The notes beneath the pieces are model-generated. The model did no database searches. It was not told where the DNA came from and saw only the letters and a list, made by a program, of their open reading frames with translations. From contig NZ_JAMCOJ010000001.1 in NCBI RefSeq assembly GCF_023476645.1, forward strand, positions 558,001-622,000: 64,000 bases of DNA. The letters run 5' to 3'. This document shows positions 7,174 to 15,091 of the stretch, piece after piece (position 1 is the first letter of the stretch; every line of letters starts with the position of its first letter). Source of the DNA: Cellulophaga sp. 20_2_10. Its GTDB lineage: Bacteria; Bacteroidota; Bacteroidia; Flavobacteriales; Flavobacteriaceae. Both the position numbers and the translations under genes were made by a program.

Positions 7174-8424
7174 TTATACTAAGTATTGAAACAAGTCTGG
7201 CTTATTATTTAAGTAATCACCAAAGAAGTTATTCTCTTTCATTCTTGTAATCAATGGTTCTAAATCTTCAGTATATTTTAACTCTATACCAACAACCGCA
7301 GGAGCATTTTCTTTGCTCGATTTTTTAGAGTATTCAAAATGAGTAATATCATCCGTTGGTCCTAAAATTTCTGCGACAAACTCTTTTAAAGCTCCAGGAC
7401 GCTGCGGAAAACGTACAATAAAGTAATGCTTTAAATTAGCGAACAAAAGGGCCCGTTCTTTAATTTCTGCCGTTCTAGTAATATCGTTATTACTACCACT
7501 AACAACACAAACTACGTTTTTACCTTCTATTTGTTTTACATACTGGTCTAGTGCAGCAATTGTAAGCGCTCCGGCAGGTTCTACTACAATAGCATCTCTG
7601 TTGTACAAGTCTAAAATAGTTTGGCACACTTTGCCTTCTGGTACTGTAATAACAGCATCTAAATACTCTTTACAAATCTCAAAAGTTAAATCTCCCACAC
7701 GTTGTACAGCAGCACCATCTACAAATTTGTCTATTTGTGTTAGCTCTGTATTAACTCCGTTTTCTATGCTCGTTTTCATAGAAGGAGCACCAGCAGGCTC
7801 TACACCTATTATTTTTGTATTGGGTGATAAAGCTTTAAAGACACCGCATAAACCGGCAGCTAAACCACCTCCTCCAATAGCAACAAAAATATAATCTATT
7901 TCTGTTTTAGATTGATGAATGGCTTCTAAACCAACTGTAGCCTGTCCCTCAATAGTTTTAGGATCGTTAAAAGGATGTACAAAAACTTTTTGATGTTCCT
8001 CGCAAAATTGAATAGCTGCTTTAGAAGAATCGTCAAAAGTATCACCTACTAAAACAATAGTTACCCAATCGCCACCAAACATTTCAGTTTGTTCTACCTT
8101 TTGTTTTGGCGTAACCGAAGGCATATAAATAGTTCCTTTTATACCTAAATGATTACACGCAAAAGCAACTCCTTGTGCATGATTGCCTGCACTTGCGCAA
8201 ACAACACCTTTTTTTCTTTCTGAATCGGATAATGAATTAATTTTATTAAAAGCACCTCTAATCTTATAAGATCTTACACGGTGTAAATCTTCTCTTTTTA
8301 ATAAAATAGTAGCATTAAAAAGTTTAGAATAGCGAATACTTTCTAGTAATGGGGTGATATCTGCAACGGCACTAATTGTAGTAGCTGCTTTACGTATGTC
8401 TTCTATATTTGGGAAATAACTCAT
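7174..8424 (-). CDS. ilvA: threonine deaminase (threonine ammonia-lyase)
   Basis: A 416-residue PLP enzyme that converts threonine to 2-oxobutanoate, the first committed step to isoleucine. The PLP lysine is Lys54 in VRSYKIRGAFN. The glycine-rich phosphate loop appears as IGGGGLAAGL, and the usual SAGNHAQG substrate loop is present. The C-terminal 80 or so residues form one ACT-like regulatory domain (FPQRPGALKEFVAEIL), as in the shorter IlvA type, which suggests feedback control by isoleucine. It is the last gene of the ilv operon, 70 bases after ilvC, and a terminator-like hairpin lies in that gap, so its expression may be lower than, or partly separate from, the upstream genes. Confidence 0.93.
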   Translation of the reverse strand: MSYFPNIEDIRKAATTISAVADITPLLESIRYSKLFNATILLKREDLHRVRSYKIRGAFNKINSLSDSERKKGVVCASAGNHAQGVAFACNHLGIKGTIYMPSVTPKQKVEQTEMFGGDWVTIVLVGDTFDDSSKAAIQFCEEHQKVFVHPFNDPKTIEGQATVGLEAIHQSKTEIDYIFVAIGGGGLAAGLCGVFKALSPNTKIIGVEPAGAPSMKTSIENGVNTELTQIDKFVDGAAVQRVGDLTFEICKEYLDAVITVPEGKVCQTILDLYNRDAIVVEPAGALTIAALDQYVKQIEGKNVVCVVSGSNNDITRTAEIKERALLFANLKHYFIVRFPQRPGALKEFVAEILGPTDDITHFEYSKKSSKENAPAVVGIELKYTEDLEPLITRMKENNFFGDYLNNKPDLFQYLV

Positions 8425-8494: not shown

Positions 8495-9970
8495 TTACAC
8501 AATAGGTTTCATTGCAGTCATAGACGCTCTTAATCTAGCTCCTACAATTTCTACCGGATGCTCTCTTAATGCTTTGTTTACAGCAATTAATTTAGCGTTA
8601 TCTACACCATTACCTGCACCCGCAGCATATGGTTTGCCAATAATAGAAGTATCTACTTTAGCCATAAAGTCTTTTAATAAAGGCTTACAAGCATGATCAA
8701 ATAAATAACAACCATATTCAGCAGTATCAGAGATAACCCTGTTCATTTCAAATAACTTTTTACGTGCAATTGTATTGGCAATAAGTGGCGTTTCGTGTAA
8801 AGATTCGTAGTAGGCAGATTCTGCAATAATACCAGACTCCGTCATAGCTTCAAAAGCAAGTTCTACACCAGCTCTAACCATAGCAATCATTAATACACCG
8901 TTATCATAAAATTCTTGTTCAGAAATTTCTACATCACCAGCTGCTGTTTTTTCAAATGCAGTTTCACCAGTAGCAGCACGCCAATCTAATAAGTTTTTAT
9001 CACCATTAGCCCAATCTTCCATCATTGTTTTAGAAAATTCGCCTTCCATAATATCATCCATATGTTTTTGAAATAATGGACGCATAATATCTTTTAATTC
9101 TTCAGCTAACTCAAACGCTTTTATTTTAGCAGGATTAGACAAACGATCCATCATATTTGTGATACCACCATATTTAAGACCTTCTGTAACAGTTTCCCAA
9201 CCGTATTGTATTAATTTAGAAGCATAACCAGCATCTACGCCTTCTGCTACCATTTTATCAAAACAAAGAATAGAACCTGTTTGTAACAAACCACATAAAA
9301 TAGTTTGCTCACCCATTAAATCTGATTTTACTTCGGCAACAAAAGAAGACTCTAAAACACCAGCTTTATGTCCGCCTGTAGCAGCAGCATAAGCTTTAGC
9401 TTGCGCCAAACCTTTACCTTCTGGATCGTTTTCTGGGTGAACAGCAATAAGTGTTGGTACACCAAAACCTCTTTTATACTCCTCACGAACCTCTGAACCT
9501 GGAGACTTTGGGGCCACCATAATTACAGTTAAATCTTTACGTACTTGTGTACCTTCTTCAACAATATTAAAACCGTGAGAATAAGATAATGTAGCACCAT
9601 TTTTCATTAATGGCATTACGGTATTTACCACATTTGTATGTTGCTTGTCTGGAGTAAGATTAATTACTAAATCCGCAGTTGGTACCAACTCTTTATAATT
9701 ACCTACTGTAAATCCGTTTTCTGAAGCATTTTTAAACGACGCTCTTTTTTCTTGTATAGCAGCATCACGTAAAGCATAAGAAATATCTAAACCAGAATCT
9801 CTCATATTTAAACCTTGATTTAGGCCTTGAGCTCCACAGCCAATAATTACTATTTTTTTTCCTTTTAATACTGTTACTCCATCAGAGAATTCTATAGTAT
9901 CCATAAATCTACATTTACCCAACTGAGTTAATTTGTCTCTTAGTGATAAGGTGTTAAAATAATTTGACAT
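8495..9970 (-). CDS. ilvC: ketol-acid reductoisomerase (class II, long form)
   Basis: A 491-residue enzyme, the length of the E. coli long-form KARI, that isomerises and reduces acetolactate or acetohydroxybutyrate with NADPH and Mg2+. The nucleotide-binding loop is [19 protein letters not shown]. Two C-terminal knotted domains follow, with the conserved acidic stretch [16 protein letters not shown] in the first. The ATG at 9970 is followed by [21 protein letters not shown], the usual start of this class. It lies 46 bases after ilvN in the ilv operon. No oddities seen. Confidence 0.96.
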
Positions 9971-10016: not shown

Positions 10017-10544
10017 TTAATTATGTTGAAATTCTTCTAATAAGCTACTAATACGCATTTCGGCTTTACTTACTGCAATTCTGCCTGAATGTACAAATTG
10101 CATTATTCCGTAAGGTTCTAGTTGCTCATGCATTTTATTTATTTCGTCTCTTCTTCCAGATTTAGAAATCACAAAAAAGTCTCGTGCCACAGTTACTATT
10201 TGTGAGTTGTTCTCTTTTATTATGTTCTGAATCTCTCGTTCATCAAACAATAAATCTGATTTAATTTTAAACAAAGCGGACTCTTGGTAAATTATATCAT
10301 CATCATTATGATAAAATGCCTTTATGACCTCTATTTGTTTTTCAATCTGACCCACAATGTTTATAACCCATTGCTCTGTAGTATGCACAACAATAGTAAA
10401 CTTAGAAACGCTGTTAATTTCTGATTTAGAAACATTTAAAGCCTCTATATTAATGTGCCTTTTTAAAAATATGCCTGATATTCTGTTTAACAATCCTACG
10501 TTGTTTTCAGAATAAACCGATATGGTATACCAATTATTTTCCAT
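10017..10544 (-). CDS. ilvN: acetolactate synthase small (regulatory) subunit
   Basis: A 175-residue regulatory subunit with an N-terminal ACT domain (ISVYSENNVGLLNRISGIF; HINIEALNVSKSE) and a C-terminal ALS_ss domain (about 85-165). It binds valine and confers feedback inhibition on the large subunit encoded directly upstream, 58 bases away. It ends 46 bases before ilvC. The name ilvN is used for the small subunit; ilvH would be equivalent. Confidence 0.93.
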   Translation of the reverse strand: MENNWYTISVYSENNVGLLNRISGIFLKRHINIEALNVSKSEINSVSKFTIVVHTTEQWVINIVGQIEKQIEVIKAFYHNDDDIIYQESALFKIKSDLLFDEREIQNIIKENNSQIVTVARDFFVISKSGRRDEINKMHEQLEPYGIMQFVHSGRIAVSKAEMRISSLLEEFQHN

Positions 10545-10602: not shown

Positions 10603-12336
10603 TTATTTTAATCTAACGTCTGATACTGATGCCCCAGAAGGAATCATAGGAAATACGTTATCCTCTTGTTCTACTTTAACTTCTAAAAAATATGCTTCCT
10701 TAGATGCTAACATCTCTTCTATAGTAGATTTTAACTCGCTACGTTCACTAACGCGTTTAGATTTGATGTGATACCCTTCTGCTATTTTTACAAAATCTGG
10801 ATTTACCATTACAGTAGATGCGTATCTTTTTTCAAAAAATAGCTCTTGCCATTGACGAACCATTCCTAAATGATCATTATTTAATACAATAATTTTTACA
10901 GGTACTTTATGCTGAAAAATAACACCTAATTCCTGTATTGTCATTTGATAACCACCATCGCCAATAATAGCTACTACTTCCCTATCCATTGCTCCCATTT
11001 TGGCACCAATAGCAGCTGGTAAAGCAAAGCCCATAGTTCCTAAACCACCAGATGTAATATTACTTTTTGTCTGGTTAAATTTTGCGTATCTACAAGCAAT
11101 CATTTGGTGCTGACCAACATCACTAACTATAACAGCGCTATTTTTTGAAGCTAAATTAACCTGCTCTATAACTTCGCCCATTGTAAGCTTTTCTTTAGTT
11201 GGACGAATATCTTTTTCTATAACCGTATCAAACTCTACCTGATACATTTCTTTAAAAACAGTGTGCCAAGCTTTATGCTCATTCTCTTTTACAAAAGGAA
11301 GTAAAGCCTCTAAACTATCTTTAGCATTACCTAAAACGGCAACATCTGTAGGTACGTTTTTATTAATTTCTGCAGGGTCAATATCAAAATGAATAATTTT
11401 CGCCTGTTTAGCGTAGCTATCTAAATTACCAGTTACACGATCATCAAAACGCATACCTATGGCAATTAAAACATCGCACTGGTTAGTTAATACATTTGGA
11501 GCATAATTACCGTGCATACCAACCATACCAACATTTAGAGGGTGGTCACTATTTAGTGCTGCTACACCTAAAATAGTCCAAGCAGATGGTATACCTGCTT
11601 TCTCTATTAATGCTTTAAGCTGAGCTTCTGCCTCTCCTAAGATTACACCTTGACCAAATACAATTAGTGGCTTTTTTGCTGAATTAATTAATGCTGCCGC
11701 AGCTTCTACTTTTGCTGTATCTATTTTTGGATATGGATTGTAACTACGAACACCTACACAGGCTTCATAACTAAAATCAAATTCTTCAAACTGTGCATCT
11801 TTAGTAATATCTACTAGTACAGGACCAGGTCTGCCAGATCTAGCAATGTAAAAAGCCTTTGCTACTATTTCTGGAATTTCTTCAGCTCTTGTAATTTGGT
11901 AGTTCCATTTTGTAACTGGTGTAGAAATACCAACAATATCTGTCTCTTGAAAAGCATCTGTACCTAATAAATGCCTAGGAACCTGGCCTGTAATACACAC
12001 CATTGGTGTAGAATCTATTTGGGCATCTGCCAATCCTGTAACTAAATTTGTTGCTCCAGGACCAGAAGTTGCTAATGCAACACCTACTTTGCCAGAAACC
12101 CTTGCATACCCCTGTGCAGCGTGCGTTGCGCCTTGCTCGTGACGCGTTAAAATATGTGTTAATTTATCTTGAAACTTGTATAATTCGTCATATACAGGCA
12201 TAATGGCACCACCTGGATAGCCATAAATTAAATCTACGCCTTCTGCTAGTAAGCAATGAATAATTGCCTCTGCTCCACTTATTTTTATGGCCTTTTTAGT
12301 TTTTGATATTGTCTTTTTTTCTTTTACTGTCTCCAT
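10603..12336 (-). CDS. ilvB: acetolactate synthase large (catalytic) subunit
   Basis: A 577-residue ThDP- and FAD-dependent enzyme making acetolactate (valine, leucine) or acetohydroxybutyrate (isoleucine). Visible are the N-terminal YGYPGGAIMPVYDELY loop, the catalytic glutamate in RHEQGATHAAQGYAR, and the ThDP/Mg motif beginning GDGGYQMTIQELG and ending in NND. The frame extends to a TTG at 12342, but the ATG at 12336 (METVKEKK) is two codons away and preferred. It lies 76 bases after ilvD, second in the operon. Confidence 0.95.
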   Translation of the reverse strand: METVKEKKTISKTKKAIKISGAEAIIHCLLAEGVDLIYGYPGGAIMPVYDELYKFQDKLTHILTRHEQGATHAAQGYARVSGKVGVALATSGPGATNLVTGLADAQIDSTPMVCITGQVPRHLLGTDAFQETDIVGISTPVTKWNYQITRAEEIPEIVAKAFYIARSGRPGPVLVDITKDAQFEEFDFSYEACVGVRSYNPYPKIDTAKVEAAAALINSAKKPLIVFGQGVILGEAEAQLKALIEKAGIPSAWTILGVAALNSDHPLNVGMVGMHGNYAPNVLTNQCDVLIAIGMRFDDRVTGNLDSYAKQAKIIHFDIDPAEINKNVPTDVAVLGNAKDSLEALLPFVKENEHKAWHTVFKEMYQVEFDTVIEKDIRPTKEKLTMGEVIEQVNLASKNSAVIVSDVGQHQMIACRYAKFNQTKSNITSGGLGTMGFALPAAIGAKMGAMDREVVAIIGDGGYQMTIQELGVIFQHKVPVKIIVLNNDHLGMVRQWQELFFEKRYASTVMVNPDFVKIAEGYHIKSKRVSERSELKSTIEEMLASKEAYFLEVKVEQEDNVFPMIPSGASVSDVRLK

Positions 12337-12418
12337 CTTCAAAGAGTTAAAGTAAAAAGTACTATTGTAATGTTTTATAAACCAATCAATAATACTTTTC
12401 TAATTTTTAAGTTTTTAG

Positions 12419-14095
12419 TTAAAATTCATCCGTTACACAACCTTGTGCTGCAGATGATACAGAACGTGCGTATTTGTATAACACACCTTTTTTAAATTTT
12501 AATTCTGGAGCCACCCAAGATTCTTTACGTTTTGCAAGTTCTTCTTCGCTTACATCTACATTAATTGCATTTGTTTCTGCATCTATAGTAATAATATCTC
12601 CATCTTTTACAAGTGCTATTGTACCACCATCTTGAGCTTCTGGCGCAATATGACCAACAACAAAACCGTGCGTACCACCAGAAAAACGACCATCTGTAAT
12701 TAATGCTACTTCTTTACCTAAACCAGCGCCCATAATAGCTGCCGTTGGTTTAAGCATTTCTGGCATTCCTGGTCCACCTTTAGGCCCTTCATACCTAATG
12801 ACGACTACATCTCCTTTTTTAACTTTTCCGTCTCTTATACCATCATTAGCATCGTATTCGCTATTAAAAACTCTTGCAGAACCTTTAAATAATAAACCTT
12901 CTTTACCCGTAATTTTTGCTACAGAACCATTTTCTGCCAAATTACCATACAACATACACAAATGTCCAGTTGCCTTGATTGGGTTTTCTAGAGGACGAAT
13001 AACATCTTGCCCCTCTATAAAACCAGGAACATCTTTTAAGTTTTCTGCTAATGTTTTACCGGTAACAGTTAAACAATCACCGTGTAATAATCCATTTTCT
13101 AATAAGTATTTTAATACTGCCGGAATACCACCAATACGGTGTACGTCTTCCATTAAATATTTACCACTAGGTTTTAGATCTGCTATAAAAGGAGTAGTAT
13201 CACTAATTTTTTGAAAATCTTGAAGTGTAAAATCTATATCAGCTGCTCTAGCAATAGCTAAAAAGTGCAATACTGCATTTGTAGAACCACCCATAATTGT
13301 TACCAAACGAATTGCATTCTCTATCGATTTTCTTGTAACAATATCTAATGGTTTAATATCTTTTTCTAGCAGGTAATACATTTGTTTACCTGCATCTATA
13401 CATTCTTGTTTTTTTTCTTTACCTGTAGCTGGATTAGATGAGTTATATGGCAAAGACATACCTAAAGCCTCTATAGCCGAAGCCATTGTATTTGCAGTAT
13501 ACATACCACCGCAAGCGCCTGCACCAGGAATTGCTTTTTTAATAATACAACCAAATTCTTCTTCTTCCATTGTACCAGCTACCTTTTCTCCCCAAGCTTC
13601 AAAAGCAGAAACAATATCTAGTTTTCTATCATTATGACAACCCGAGGCAATGGTACCGCCATAAACCAATATAGATGGTCTATTTAAACGAATCATAGCC
13701 ATAAGCGCACCAGGCATATTTTTATCACAACCAACAACAGTAACTAAACCGTCATAAGACATACCTTGTACAACAGTCTCCATAGAGTCTGCAATAATAT
13801 CTCTGGAAGGCAATGAAAAACGCATACCAGGAGTTCCCATAGAAATACCATCACTAACACCAATTGTATTAAAAATTAGTCCAACAGATTCATTAGAATT
13901 AACACCTTCCTTAACGTCTTTGGCCAAATCATTTAGGTGCATATTACATGGGTTACCCTCGTACCCTGTACTTGCAATACCCACAATTGGTTTACTAAAA
14001 TCTTCATCTTTAAAACCTATACCATACAACATAGCTTGTGCTGCTGGTTGCGTAGGATCTTGTGTTACGTTCTTACTATACTTATTTAACTCCAT
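12419..14095 (-). CDS. ilvD: dihydroxy-acid dehydratase
   Basis: A 558-residue Fe-S dehydratase that converts dihydroxy-isovalerate and dihydroxy-methylvalerate to the 2-oxo acids of valine and isoleucine. The cluster cysteines are recognisable in [20 protein letters not shown] and [14 protein letters not shown], and the C-terminus carries the [20 protein letters not shown] motif. It is the first structural gene of the ilv operon. Some 230 bases separate it from an upstream attenuator hairpin preceded by an Ile/Val/Leu-rich leader peptide. Confidence 0.95.
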
Positions 14096-14144: not shown

Positions 14145-14152
14145 CAAATATA
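14145..14152 (-). promoter_or_regulatory. possible second promoter of ilvD, downstream of the attenuator
   Basis: The minus strand reads TATATTTG, a match to TAnnTTTG, about 50 bases before the ilvD ATG. No TTG -33 element is seen. If active it would bypass the attenuator. The region is very AT-rich, so chance matches are likely. Confidence 0.25.
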
Positions 14153-14327: not shown

Positions 14328-14364
14328 AAAAAAAAAGCCTGTGTCAATTTGTATGACACAGGCT
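14328..14364 (-). terminator. ilv operon transcription attenuator
   Basis: On the minus strand a perfect 10-bp stem GCCTGTGTCA / TGACACAGGC (14363-14354 with 14346-14337), loop TACAAAT, is followed by nine T (14336-14328). It starts 27 bases after the stop codon of the leader peptide and lies 230 bases before ilvD. An alternative pairing is available: TGATACGG at the leader stop codon (14393-14386) can pair with CCTGTGTCA of the terminator's first arm, using a G-U pair and one bulge, which would form an antiterminator. Confidence 0.85.
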
Positions 14365-14390
14365 TTTCTTAAAATCAATATAAGACCGTA

Positions 14391-14450
14391 TCACCCCCAG
14401 AGAGAGATAATAATGACTAATACGATACTAATTATGCTGTTTGTTTTCAT
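14391..14450 (-). CDS. ilvL: ilv operon leader peptide
   Basis: A 19-codon reading frame, ATG at 14450 and TGA at 14393-14391, encoding MKTNSIISIVLVIIISLWG. Ten of 14 consecutive residues (6 to 19) are Ile, Val or Leu, the three products of the pathway downstream. It is placed just before a strong intrinsic terminator and the ilvDBNCA genes, the arrangement of ribosome-mediated attenuation known for ilv/leu leaders in other bacteria. When branched-chain aminoacyl-tRNAs run low the ribosome would stall on these codons and favour the alternative RNA fold. A 5-base segment inside the leader (minus-strand GTATC, 14428-14424) can pair with GATAC at the leader's end. The gene symbol is given by analogy. 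Confidence 0.82.
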   Translation of the reverse strand: MKTNSIISIVLVIIISLWG

Positions 14451-14537
14451 TCTGATAACAATATTAAAATAATATTTTAAAATGAGCACTATTTATTCTT
14501 TAGAAAAAAAAATAAAATGCATTATTAGCTCCAAAAA

Positions 14538-14647: not shown

Positions 14648-15091
14648 ATGATATGTTTAGAATGTAAGAAAGAGCTAAGCTATATTGACCACAAAAATGC
14701 CATAGATGCATTTGGTGTTGAATTATGTGCTAAGCATCAAGTGAGATTAAACAGATTAATCTTAAAAAACAATACGCCTAAAGAGGCTATACAATTATAT
14801 TATGGCCTAAAGAAAAGAAATCTAAACCCTATGTTAGAATGGTGGGACGGTAAAAAATCTATAGATATTGCCGTTTCTAGAGTAAAACTTAATATAGAAA
14901 TAGATACGGAGTACAATATGCTAACCCATGAACAAGCTATAAACGATTTAGAAGAAGCAATGCATTCTTTTAAAAATGGGTTTACAACTATACGCATACC
15001 AAATGATTTAATTAAACATCATTTTACAGAGACTATCAATAACATAATTGGTATAGTTGAAGGGTTAAACGCGAATATTAAAAAAATATAA
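14648..15091 (+). CDS. hypothetical protein: N-terminal zinc-finger-like site plus DUF559/Vsr-like nuclease-type domain
   Basis: A 147-residue cytosolic protein I do not recognise as a named family. Residues 3-30 carry Cys3-x2-Cys6-x20-Cys27-x2-His30, a plausible zinc site. The C-terminal half (SIDIAVSRVKLNIEID, then HEQAINDLEEAMHSFKNGFTTIRIPNDLI) resembles the order of DUF559/Vsr-like PD-(D/E)xK proteins: an acidic residue (Asp73), a strand ending in Glu84-x-Asp86, then a helix and a strand with Ile-Arg-Ile. That suggests a small DNA-binding or nuclease-like protein. The usual histidine after the acidic pair is less clear here. It stands alone, read away from the ilv operon and closed by a strong terminator. 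Confidence 0.7.
   Translation: MICLECKKELSYIDHKNAIDAFGVELCAKHQVRLNRLILKNNTPKEAIQLYYGLKKRNLNPMLEWWDGKKSIDIAVSRVKLNIEIDTEYNMLTHEQAINDLEEAMHSFKNGFTTIRIPNDLIKHHFTETINNIIGIVEGLNANIKKI

Follow-up and report, generated by a model that had tools for sequence, protein, structure and literature searches.

A candidate isoleucine/valine leader-peptide attenuator ahead of the Cellulophaga ilvDBNCA operon, with single and serial relatives in Flavobacteriaceae

The ilvDBNCA operon of Cellulophaga sp. 20_2_10 is preceded by an element that we read as a classical leader-peptide transcription attenuator responding to charged tRNA-Ile and tRNA-Val (we put the probability of this reading at roughly 0.87). The element was analysed within its window, that is, the whole 64-kb stretch of DNA at hand, and against the upstream regions of ilvD in other genomes, and its leader frame, its three alternative pairings and their placement relative to the leader stop codon are borne out by comparison among relatives. 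The covariation recorded there points to ribosome-mediated attenuation as a common way for Flavobacteriaceae to control the synthesis of branched-chain amino acids, and the serial use of such elements in some of the relatives is the more surprising and unusual part of the finding.

Leader frame and operon

All five genes of the operon pass the NCBIfam cut-off of their own family (Table 1), and the ilvD protein of Cellulophaga fucicola, which is paired with that of the window in the ilvD tree, shares 99% identity with it. The leader frame starts 355 nt before ilvD on the minus strand and reads ATG AAA ACA AAC AGC ATA ATT AGT ATC GTA TTA GTC ATT ATT ATC TCT CTC TGG GGG TGA. Ten of the 18 codons after the ATG specify Ile, Val or Leu (six, two and two, respectively); the arrangement described by an earlier, sequence-only reading (a 19-codon frame with ten such codons ahead of a terminator and ilvDBNCA) is present as stated, with the codons counted and the genes now confirmed by profiles. 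No frame of 80 codons is listed in the approximately 235 nt between terminator and ilvD, and the nearest listed long frame upstream of the leader is divergent (14648-15091, plus strand).

Table 1. Features of the ilv region in the window (positions refer to the window)
Feature	Position	Strand	Remarks
Leader frame MKTNSIISIVLVIIISLWG	14450-14391	-	19 codons; stop TGA 14393-14391
ilvD	12419-14095	-	TIGR00110 above NCBIfam cut-off
ilvB	10603-12342	-	TIGR00118 above NCBIfam cut-off
ilvN	10017-10544	-	TIGR00119 above NCBIfam cut-off
ilvC	8495-9970	-	NF003557 and TIGR00465 above NCBIfam cut-off
ilvA	7174-8424	-	NF006390 and TIGR02079 above NCBIfam cut-off
P1, -7-like box TAATATTG	14459-14466	-	8 nt ahead of the leader ATG
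Segment 1, 5' arm of hairpin 1:2	14403-14412	-	covers Ile codons 13-15 and, in part, codon 16
3' arm of hairpin 1:2	14389-14398	-	9 of 10 pairs recovered by RNAalifold unaided
Segment 2, antiterminator TGATACGG	14386-14393	-	its TGA is the leader stop codon
Segment 3, core of first terminator arm	14354-14363	-	pairs with segment 2 or 4
Segment 4, core of second terminator arm	14337-14346	-	pairs with segment 3
Whole intrinsic terminator hairpin and start of T run	14330-14370	-	
Conserved block between terminator and P2	14169-14269	-	boxes in relatives TTGAATATGGTATAAAA, TG..AATCA, TTGAATTTA, TGTTAAAA
P2, -7-like box TATATTTG	14145-14152	-	49 nt before ilvD, downstream of the attenuator

Occurrence in Flavobacteriaceae and beyond

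The ilvD gene was found in 154 of 199 sampled genomes of the family; upstream DNA was taken from 148 of these loci, and 147 had at least 300 nt of it. A strict scan (ATG-started leader of 10-40 codons, at least 36% Ile, Val or Leu, terminator right behind it, no more than 700 nt upstream of ilvD) recovered leader and terminator in 62 of the 147 loci, against 1/147 on the reverse strand and 0-1/147 in five dinucleotide-shuffled sets. The conserved, Ile/Val-rich leaders for which the sequence-only reading had advised a search among related Flavobacteriaceae are thus there. With longer flanks, where available, the counts become 63/147 for the family loci and 40/70 for the loci of named genomes (80 minus 10 that duplicate unnamed loci). 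We stress that these counts are lower bounds: the strict scan missed loci caught by an earlier one, for instance L062, L097, L155 and L159, and its 700-nt limit excludes some leaders that stand farther off, ahead of ilvE. The strict scan, again with longer flanks where available, found no module in 84 of the 147 family loci, 32 of which have a same-strand open frame of at least 100 codons ending no more than 400 nt upstream. Six loci of close relatives in which no leader and terminator were found (L002, L157, L160, L162, L217 and L226, from Kriegella, three Maribacter and two Eudoraea) have kept the block associated with the downstream box P2.

By sequence, three main classes of terminator can be told apart, A (GCCTTCC, 59 modules), B (GCCTGTATC, 39 modules) and C (TCCCTT, 15 modules), besides eight others; that of the window belongs to class B, and all but one of the 15 class C modules come from genomes named or placed with Aquimarina. 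In the ilvD tree, all 15 rows with class B only are confined to one part of 28 rows, together with Cellulophaga, Maribacter and Zobellia, and the class A-only, serial and class C rows lie outside the class B-only part. With 31 changes needed for the class labels and 37 of 97 inner forks open, this tree does not settle the ancestry of the classes.

Run on the genome of the window, a covariance model of class B gave the element 79.7 bits; the next matches were the window terminator on the opposite strand (38.6 bits) and ordinary terminators at gene ends (38.5 and 37.8 bits). The own-genome matches L232 and L233, situated at ordinary gene ends, were rejected as plain terminators. Across the 199 family genomes the model reached at least 49.9 bits at 36 places in 35 genomes (23 of them in the model's own alignment, 13 outside), and each of the 36, compared by eye, is on the same strand as ilvD and no more than about 1.2 kb ahead of it; at an E-value of 0.01 the number of genomes is 114/199, mostly through weaker matches. 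When 296 genomes of the phylum were searched, four places exceeded 46 bits, all of them in Flavobacteriaceae and three from the model's alignment, and class B looks, by this score, family-restricted within the 296-genome sample. In some further families of the taxonomic class, too, ilv genes have leader-like frames with terminators ahead of them: in a scan irrespective of terminator class, 13 of 32 ilvD loci had both (10 with ATG; a count that stands without a shuffle control), the best by eye being L264, L271 (two in series), L274, L286, L292, L293 and L295, from six families. In the 64-kb window no Rfam family, T-box included, attained its gathering score, the best on the coding strand being Thr_leader (RF00506; 28.7 bits against a gathering score of 55). 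Models of the three terminator classes could annotate many genomes that Rfam leaves blank.

Two other operons of the same genome have comparable elements. Upstream of hisG (L304, contig C1) lies a leader that has a run of four His codons (MRNNNTHHHHFTPCYQAS) and is followed by a terminator; upstream of a prephenate dehydratase gene of the pheA type (L305, contig C23) lies a Phe/Tyr leader (MNTRYFWNGFYFYFFFKRGAGLL), likewise followed by a terminator. At two leuA-type (HMGL-like) loci, the ones scanned out of four HMGL-like places in the genome, no leader with terminator was found; at the two homoserine dehydrogenase loci the flanks end short of the gene starts.

Amino acids encoded by the leaders

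Among 128 leaders assigned to classes A, B and C, about 32% of the residues are Ile and 13-15% Val, and Leu makes up about 6% (classes A and B) or 2.6% (class C), as against 9.2% in ten genes of the window. Hence, of the Ile/Val/Leu signal proposed for the window leader, the Ile/Val part stands and the Leu part falls: judged from leader composition, the sensed amino acids would be Ile and Val, without Leu enrichment. The differences between class A leaders distribute over codon positions 1, 2 and 3 as 0.344/0.205/0.451 (513 pairs), compared with 0.334/0.314/0.352 in a non-coding control; for class B the values, from 13 pairs only, are 0.293/0.220/0.488. A bias of its own kind concerns the Val codon GTC, which makes up 36-52% of the leader Val codons in classes A, B and C and 8.2% of the Val codons of ilvD at the same 61 loci; pairing, sensitivity or both may be the cause of this excess.

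Three mutually exclusive hairpins

The RNA from 14460 to 14300 folds at -41.3 kcal/mol (z = -4.56; none of 200 shuffles was equally stable), and the fold check suggested by the sequence-only reading comes out in its favour. The terminator comprises 13 consecutive Watson-Crick pairs (AAAGCCTGTGTCA / TGACACAGGCTTT), or 17 pairs when one G-U is included, and runs into a stretch of T; described earlier as a perfect 10-bp intrinsic terminator, it was correctly recognised and its length understated. The antiterminator was rightly placed at the leader stop: segment 2 has the stop TGA as its first triplet and forms 8 bp with the first terminator arm, including two G-U pairs. What had been taken for a 5-base element in the leader does pair, its size being that of an arm of the 10-bp hairpin 1:2.

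Across 35 aligned class B sequences, hairpin 1:2 is paired in 89.7% of the cells (a slightly flattering figure, since four class B rows were left out) versus 34-54% in slid registers, pairing 2:3 in 98.2% versus 22-45%, and terminator 3:4 in 97.1% versus 21-54%; these slides account for relatedness but favour a structure that was derived from the same sequences. Double-changed cells, counted against shuffles that ignore relatedness, number 47 in hairpin 1:2 (17.9 ± 3.4 shuffled; 0/500) and 19 in the terminator (3.8 ± 1.6 shuffled; 0/500). The compensatory pairing that was to be looked for is therefore above shuffle in 1:2 and 3:4, and pairing 2:3, almost invariant, has no visible covariation among the 35 class B sequences. 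RNAalifold recovered 1:2 and 3:4 in class B without prior input. The four rows left out of the 39 (L018, L075, L090 and L152) have an irregular or misplaced segment-2 anchor; the fold is good in L075 and L152 and poor in L018 and L090. When the full set of 39 rows is used (38 of them distinct, and L075 misanchored), a 9-bp register of hairpin 1:2 is paired in 80.7% of the cells, versus 38-65% when shifted.

Segment 2 prefers the terminator arm of its own class, in class B at -9.2 kcal/mol versus -4.0 and -4.6 kcal/mol with the arms of the other classes and in class C at -9.5 versus -5.9 and -6.8 kcal/mol; the preference is weak in class A (-7.6 versus -6.3 and -6.9 kcal/mol). Against mononucleotide shuffles, the 2:3 duplex passes the 0.05 level in 27/59 class A, 23/39 class B and 14/15 class C modules. 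For class A, RNAalifold returned the terminator and a short GUGA/UCAC hairpin, and neither 1:2 nor 2:3 came out clearly; the claim of three hairpins is therefore based on class B, to which the window element belongs. There, with leader, 1:2, 2:3 and 3:4 conserved and the stop codon in segment 2, the three-part logic of ribosome-mediated attenuation attributed to the element is supported.

Proposed mechanism

From this point on, leader translation, ribosome stalling, the start site and the amino-acid response are steps that we infer. Transcription would start a few nucleotides before the leader ATG. Given ample Ile and Val, the ribosome would reach the stop codon and cover segment 2, whereupon segment 3 would pair with segment 4 and transcription would end. 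Were Ile or Val scarce, it would stall on the Val-Ile-Ile-Ile codons at and just before segment 1, leaving segment 2 free to pair with segment 3 before segment 4 is made, and the polymerase would enter ilvDBNCA. If the leader were not translated at all, 1:2 would form and the terminator would win again.

Ribosome positions were modelled by folding the RNA not covered by the ribosome, as far as segment 3 extends, with the 3' edge of the ribosome set at the first base of the A site plus 13. Folded with no ribosome on it, the RNA forms 1:2. When the A site lies at codons 5-12, 2:3 appears with 7-8 pairs alongside a partial 1:2, and at codons 13-16 it keeps 7-8 pairs and 1:2 is lost; at codon 17 it is down to 4 pairs, and from codon 18 on it is absent. 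In these folds, thus, a stalled ribosome would favour readthrough and a finishing one termination. The modelled sensing window is broad rather than sharp, 2:3 already having 7 pairs with the A site at codons 5-10. As regards energies, 2:3 (-6.3 kcal/mol) is far weaker than 3:4 (-21.2 kcal/mol), with 1:2 at -7.9 kcal/mol, and once segment 4 is included 3:4 forms at every A-site position tested (codons 5-20). Antitermination would therefore have to be kinetic, with 2:3 forming first.

Serial attenuators in relatives

The window holds one leader-terminator module, not two in series. At least two modules were found in 9/147 family loci and 16/70 named loci, and longer flanks bring in a further five genomes in which two modules precede ilvE-ilvD and one, L298, in which there are three; the gene between modules and ilvD passes the ilvE_I cut-off in both of the cases tested, and the other frames look alike. 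Wherever classes A and B were recognised together, in 22 rows that stem from 20 genomes (two of which appear twice), class A stands ahead of class B, and the reverse order never occurs. The three serial modules of L298 occupy the region 1340-900 nt upstream of ilvD, the last two being near-identical, with intact frames; to judge by this likeness, a fresh duplication is visible. Behind these modules, the ilvE-like gene is spread over two frames.

We lean, by a narrow balance, towards a view in which the ilv operon of Flavobacteriaceae would often be under serial attenuators, with two modules, or three in one genome, for the same amino acids on one nearly leaderless transcript, their stringency multiplied and a conserved promoter behind them acting as a bypass, and in which the single module of Cellulophaga would be a reduced form. 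This raises the question of what serial attenuators with the same signal gain.

Promoter-like boxes and alternative readings

In Flavobacterium psychrophilum the sigma-A box is reported at -12 to -5, and 5.5% of the mRNAs are leaderless (PMC9723704). Read in this light, the position of P1 gives a 5' leader of about 4 nt: transcription may start about 4 nt before the leader ATG, and the leader may be nearly leaderless. A TA-N2-4-TTG box, a pattern chosen after the sequences had been inspected, ends 0-25 nt before the first leader in 55/107 loci (shuffled 22.8 ± 3.7, maximum 31), at a median of 8 nt ahead of the ATG; it was seen before 2/29 second leaders and 9/56 ilvD genes. The strict form TTTG-N17-21-TANNTTTG is rare ahead of leaders (3/107, shuffled 0.66), where TANNTTTG by itself shows no clear enrichment either (20/107, shuffled 13.8, maximum 24). 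How a nearly leaderless frame would load ribosomes fast enough for coupling with the polymerase is a further question raised.

The main uncertainty over the physiological weight of the attenuator is P2, which may yield an extra, non-attenuated transcript that bypasses it. A transcript starting downstream of 14328, held by the sequence-only reading to speak against the element, is a live possibility, but such a transcript would leave the attenuator in place and provide a way around it: P1 transcripts would be attenuated while P2 would give a separate level. Taken further, the attenuator could be real but minor, with most ilv mRNA coming from P2 under a DNA-binding regulator of the conserved block, which we regard as unlikely, although several observations speak for it. 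TANNTTTG stands 45-51 nt ahead of ilvD in all 30 loci picked as class B-only or close relatives, six relatives without a leader frame included (shuffled mean 1.5, maximum 6), and TANNTT[TC]G, with a related block, in 19/21 class A loci (shuffled mean 2.0, maximum 5); by eye, similar blocks also follow the last terminator in serial loci and in other lineages. The conserved block ahead of P2, of about 110 nt and with its first box degenerate in the window, has no RNA consensus fold (alifold energy 0 in both lineages, as in shuffles), for which reason we read it as DNA, probably a promoter/operator. Against a dominant P2 stand four further class B loci, with the box at 45 nt in one, at 37-38 nt in two and missing from one, and the fact that leader, hairpins and P1-like box look maintained in many genera, unlike a bypassed relic.

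The two remaining readings would deny the leader its role altogether. That the element senses something else, as a riboswitch, a T-box or the target of a regulatory protein, with the leader incidental, is very improbable: a terminator and antiterminator would look the same, but in the window every Rfam family stays below its gathering score, leaders from each of the three terminator classes are rich in Ile and Val, and the codons of the same-genome leaders before hisG and the prephenate dehydratase gene match the product there as well. Scarcely credible is a hairpin that terminates another transcript next to a frame arisen by chance. Short frames are indeed common in AT-rich DNA, and the class B model awards as much as 38.5 bits to ordinary terminators in the genome, yet the shuffled and reverse-strand controls returned next to none of the modules, the nearest long upstream frame is divergent, and the compensatory changes in 1:2 fall outside the terminator; comparison among relatives refutes this reading. 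Leader-peptide attenuation by Ile and Val is the reading that we retain.

Comparison with known systems

Ribosome-mediated attenuators are known from E. coli ilvGMEDA and from the trp, his, thr, leu and phe operons, and a survey of attenuation in bacteria by Lopatovskaya (2010) may include cases from Bacteroidetes. By general description, rather than by comparison of sequences, the window element resembles the ilvGMEDA type in its short frame rich in codons for the product, the stop codon near segment 2, the three exclusive hairpins and the terminator before the first gene. Unlike that type, it stays below the gathering scores of the Rfam leader families, is not enriched in Leu codons, and has a predicted, nearly leaderless 5' end, the gene order ilvDBNCA and a second promoter-like box behind the attenuator.

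Within the same bacterial family, a transcriptome paper on F. psychrophilum from 2021 presents strong clues for leader-peptide attenuation ahead of amino-acid operons, with conserved 5' elements ahead of pheA and hisG (PMC9723704). The ilv element thus joins a kind already noted; the passages of that paper on attenuation give neither a structure nor a serial arrangement, and 'ilv' is absent from its main text. Among the matches listed from the open-licence literature (titles and abstract openings), none describes an ilv leader in Bacteroidota or serial leader-peptide attenuators with the same signal. Outside Gammaproteobacteria, the ilvBNC operon of Corynebacterium, in a phylum other than that of the window element, is likewise described as preceded by a three-hairpin attenuator or conserved uORF (PMC11857589, PMC10272879), a likeness at the level of description. 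As to the serial relatives, the nearest parallel is Salmonella mgtCBR, whose tandem attenuators with different signals have been termed a singular example (PMC3641672). There, too, two short frames share one leader, as in the serial flavobacterial loci; the Salmonella signals differ (ATP and proline), whereas both flavobacterial modules look Ile/Val-sensing and each has a terminator of its own.
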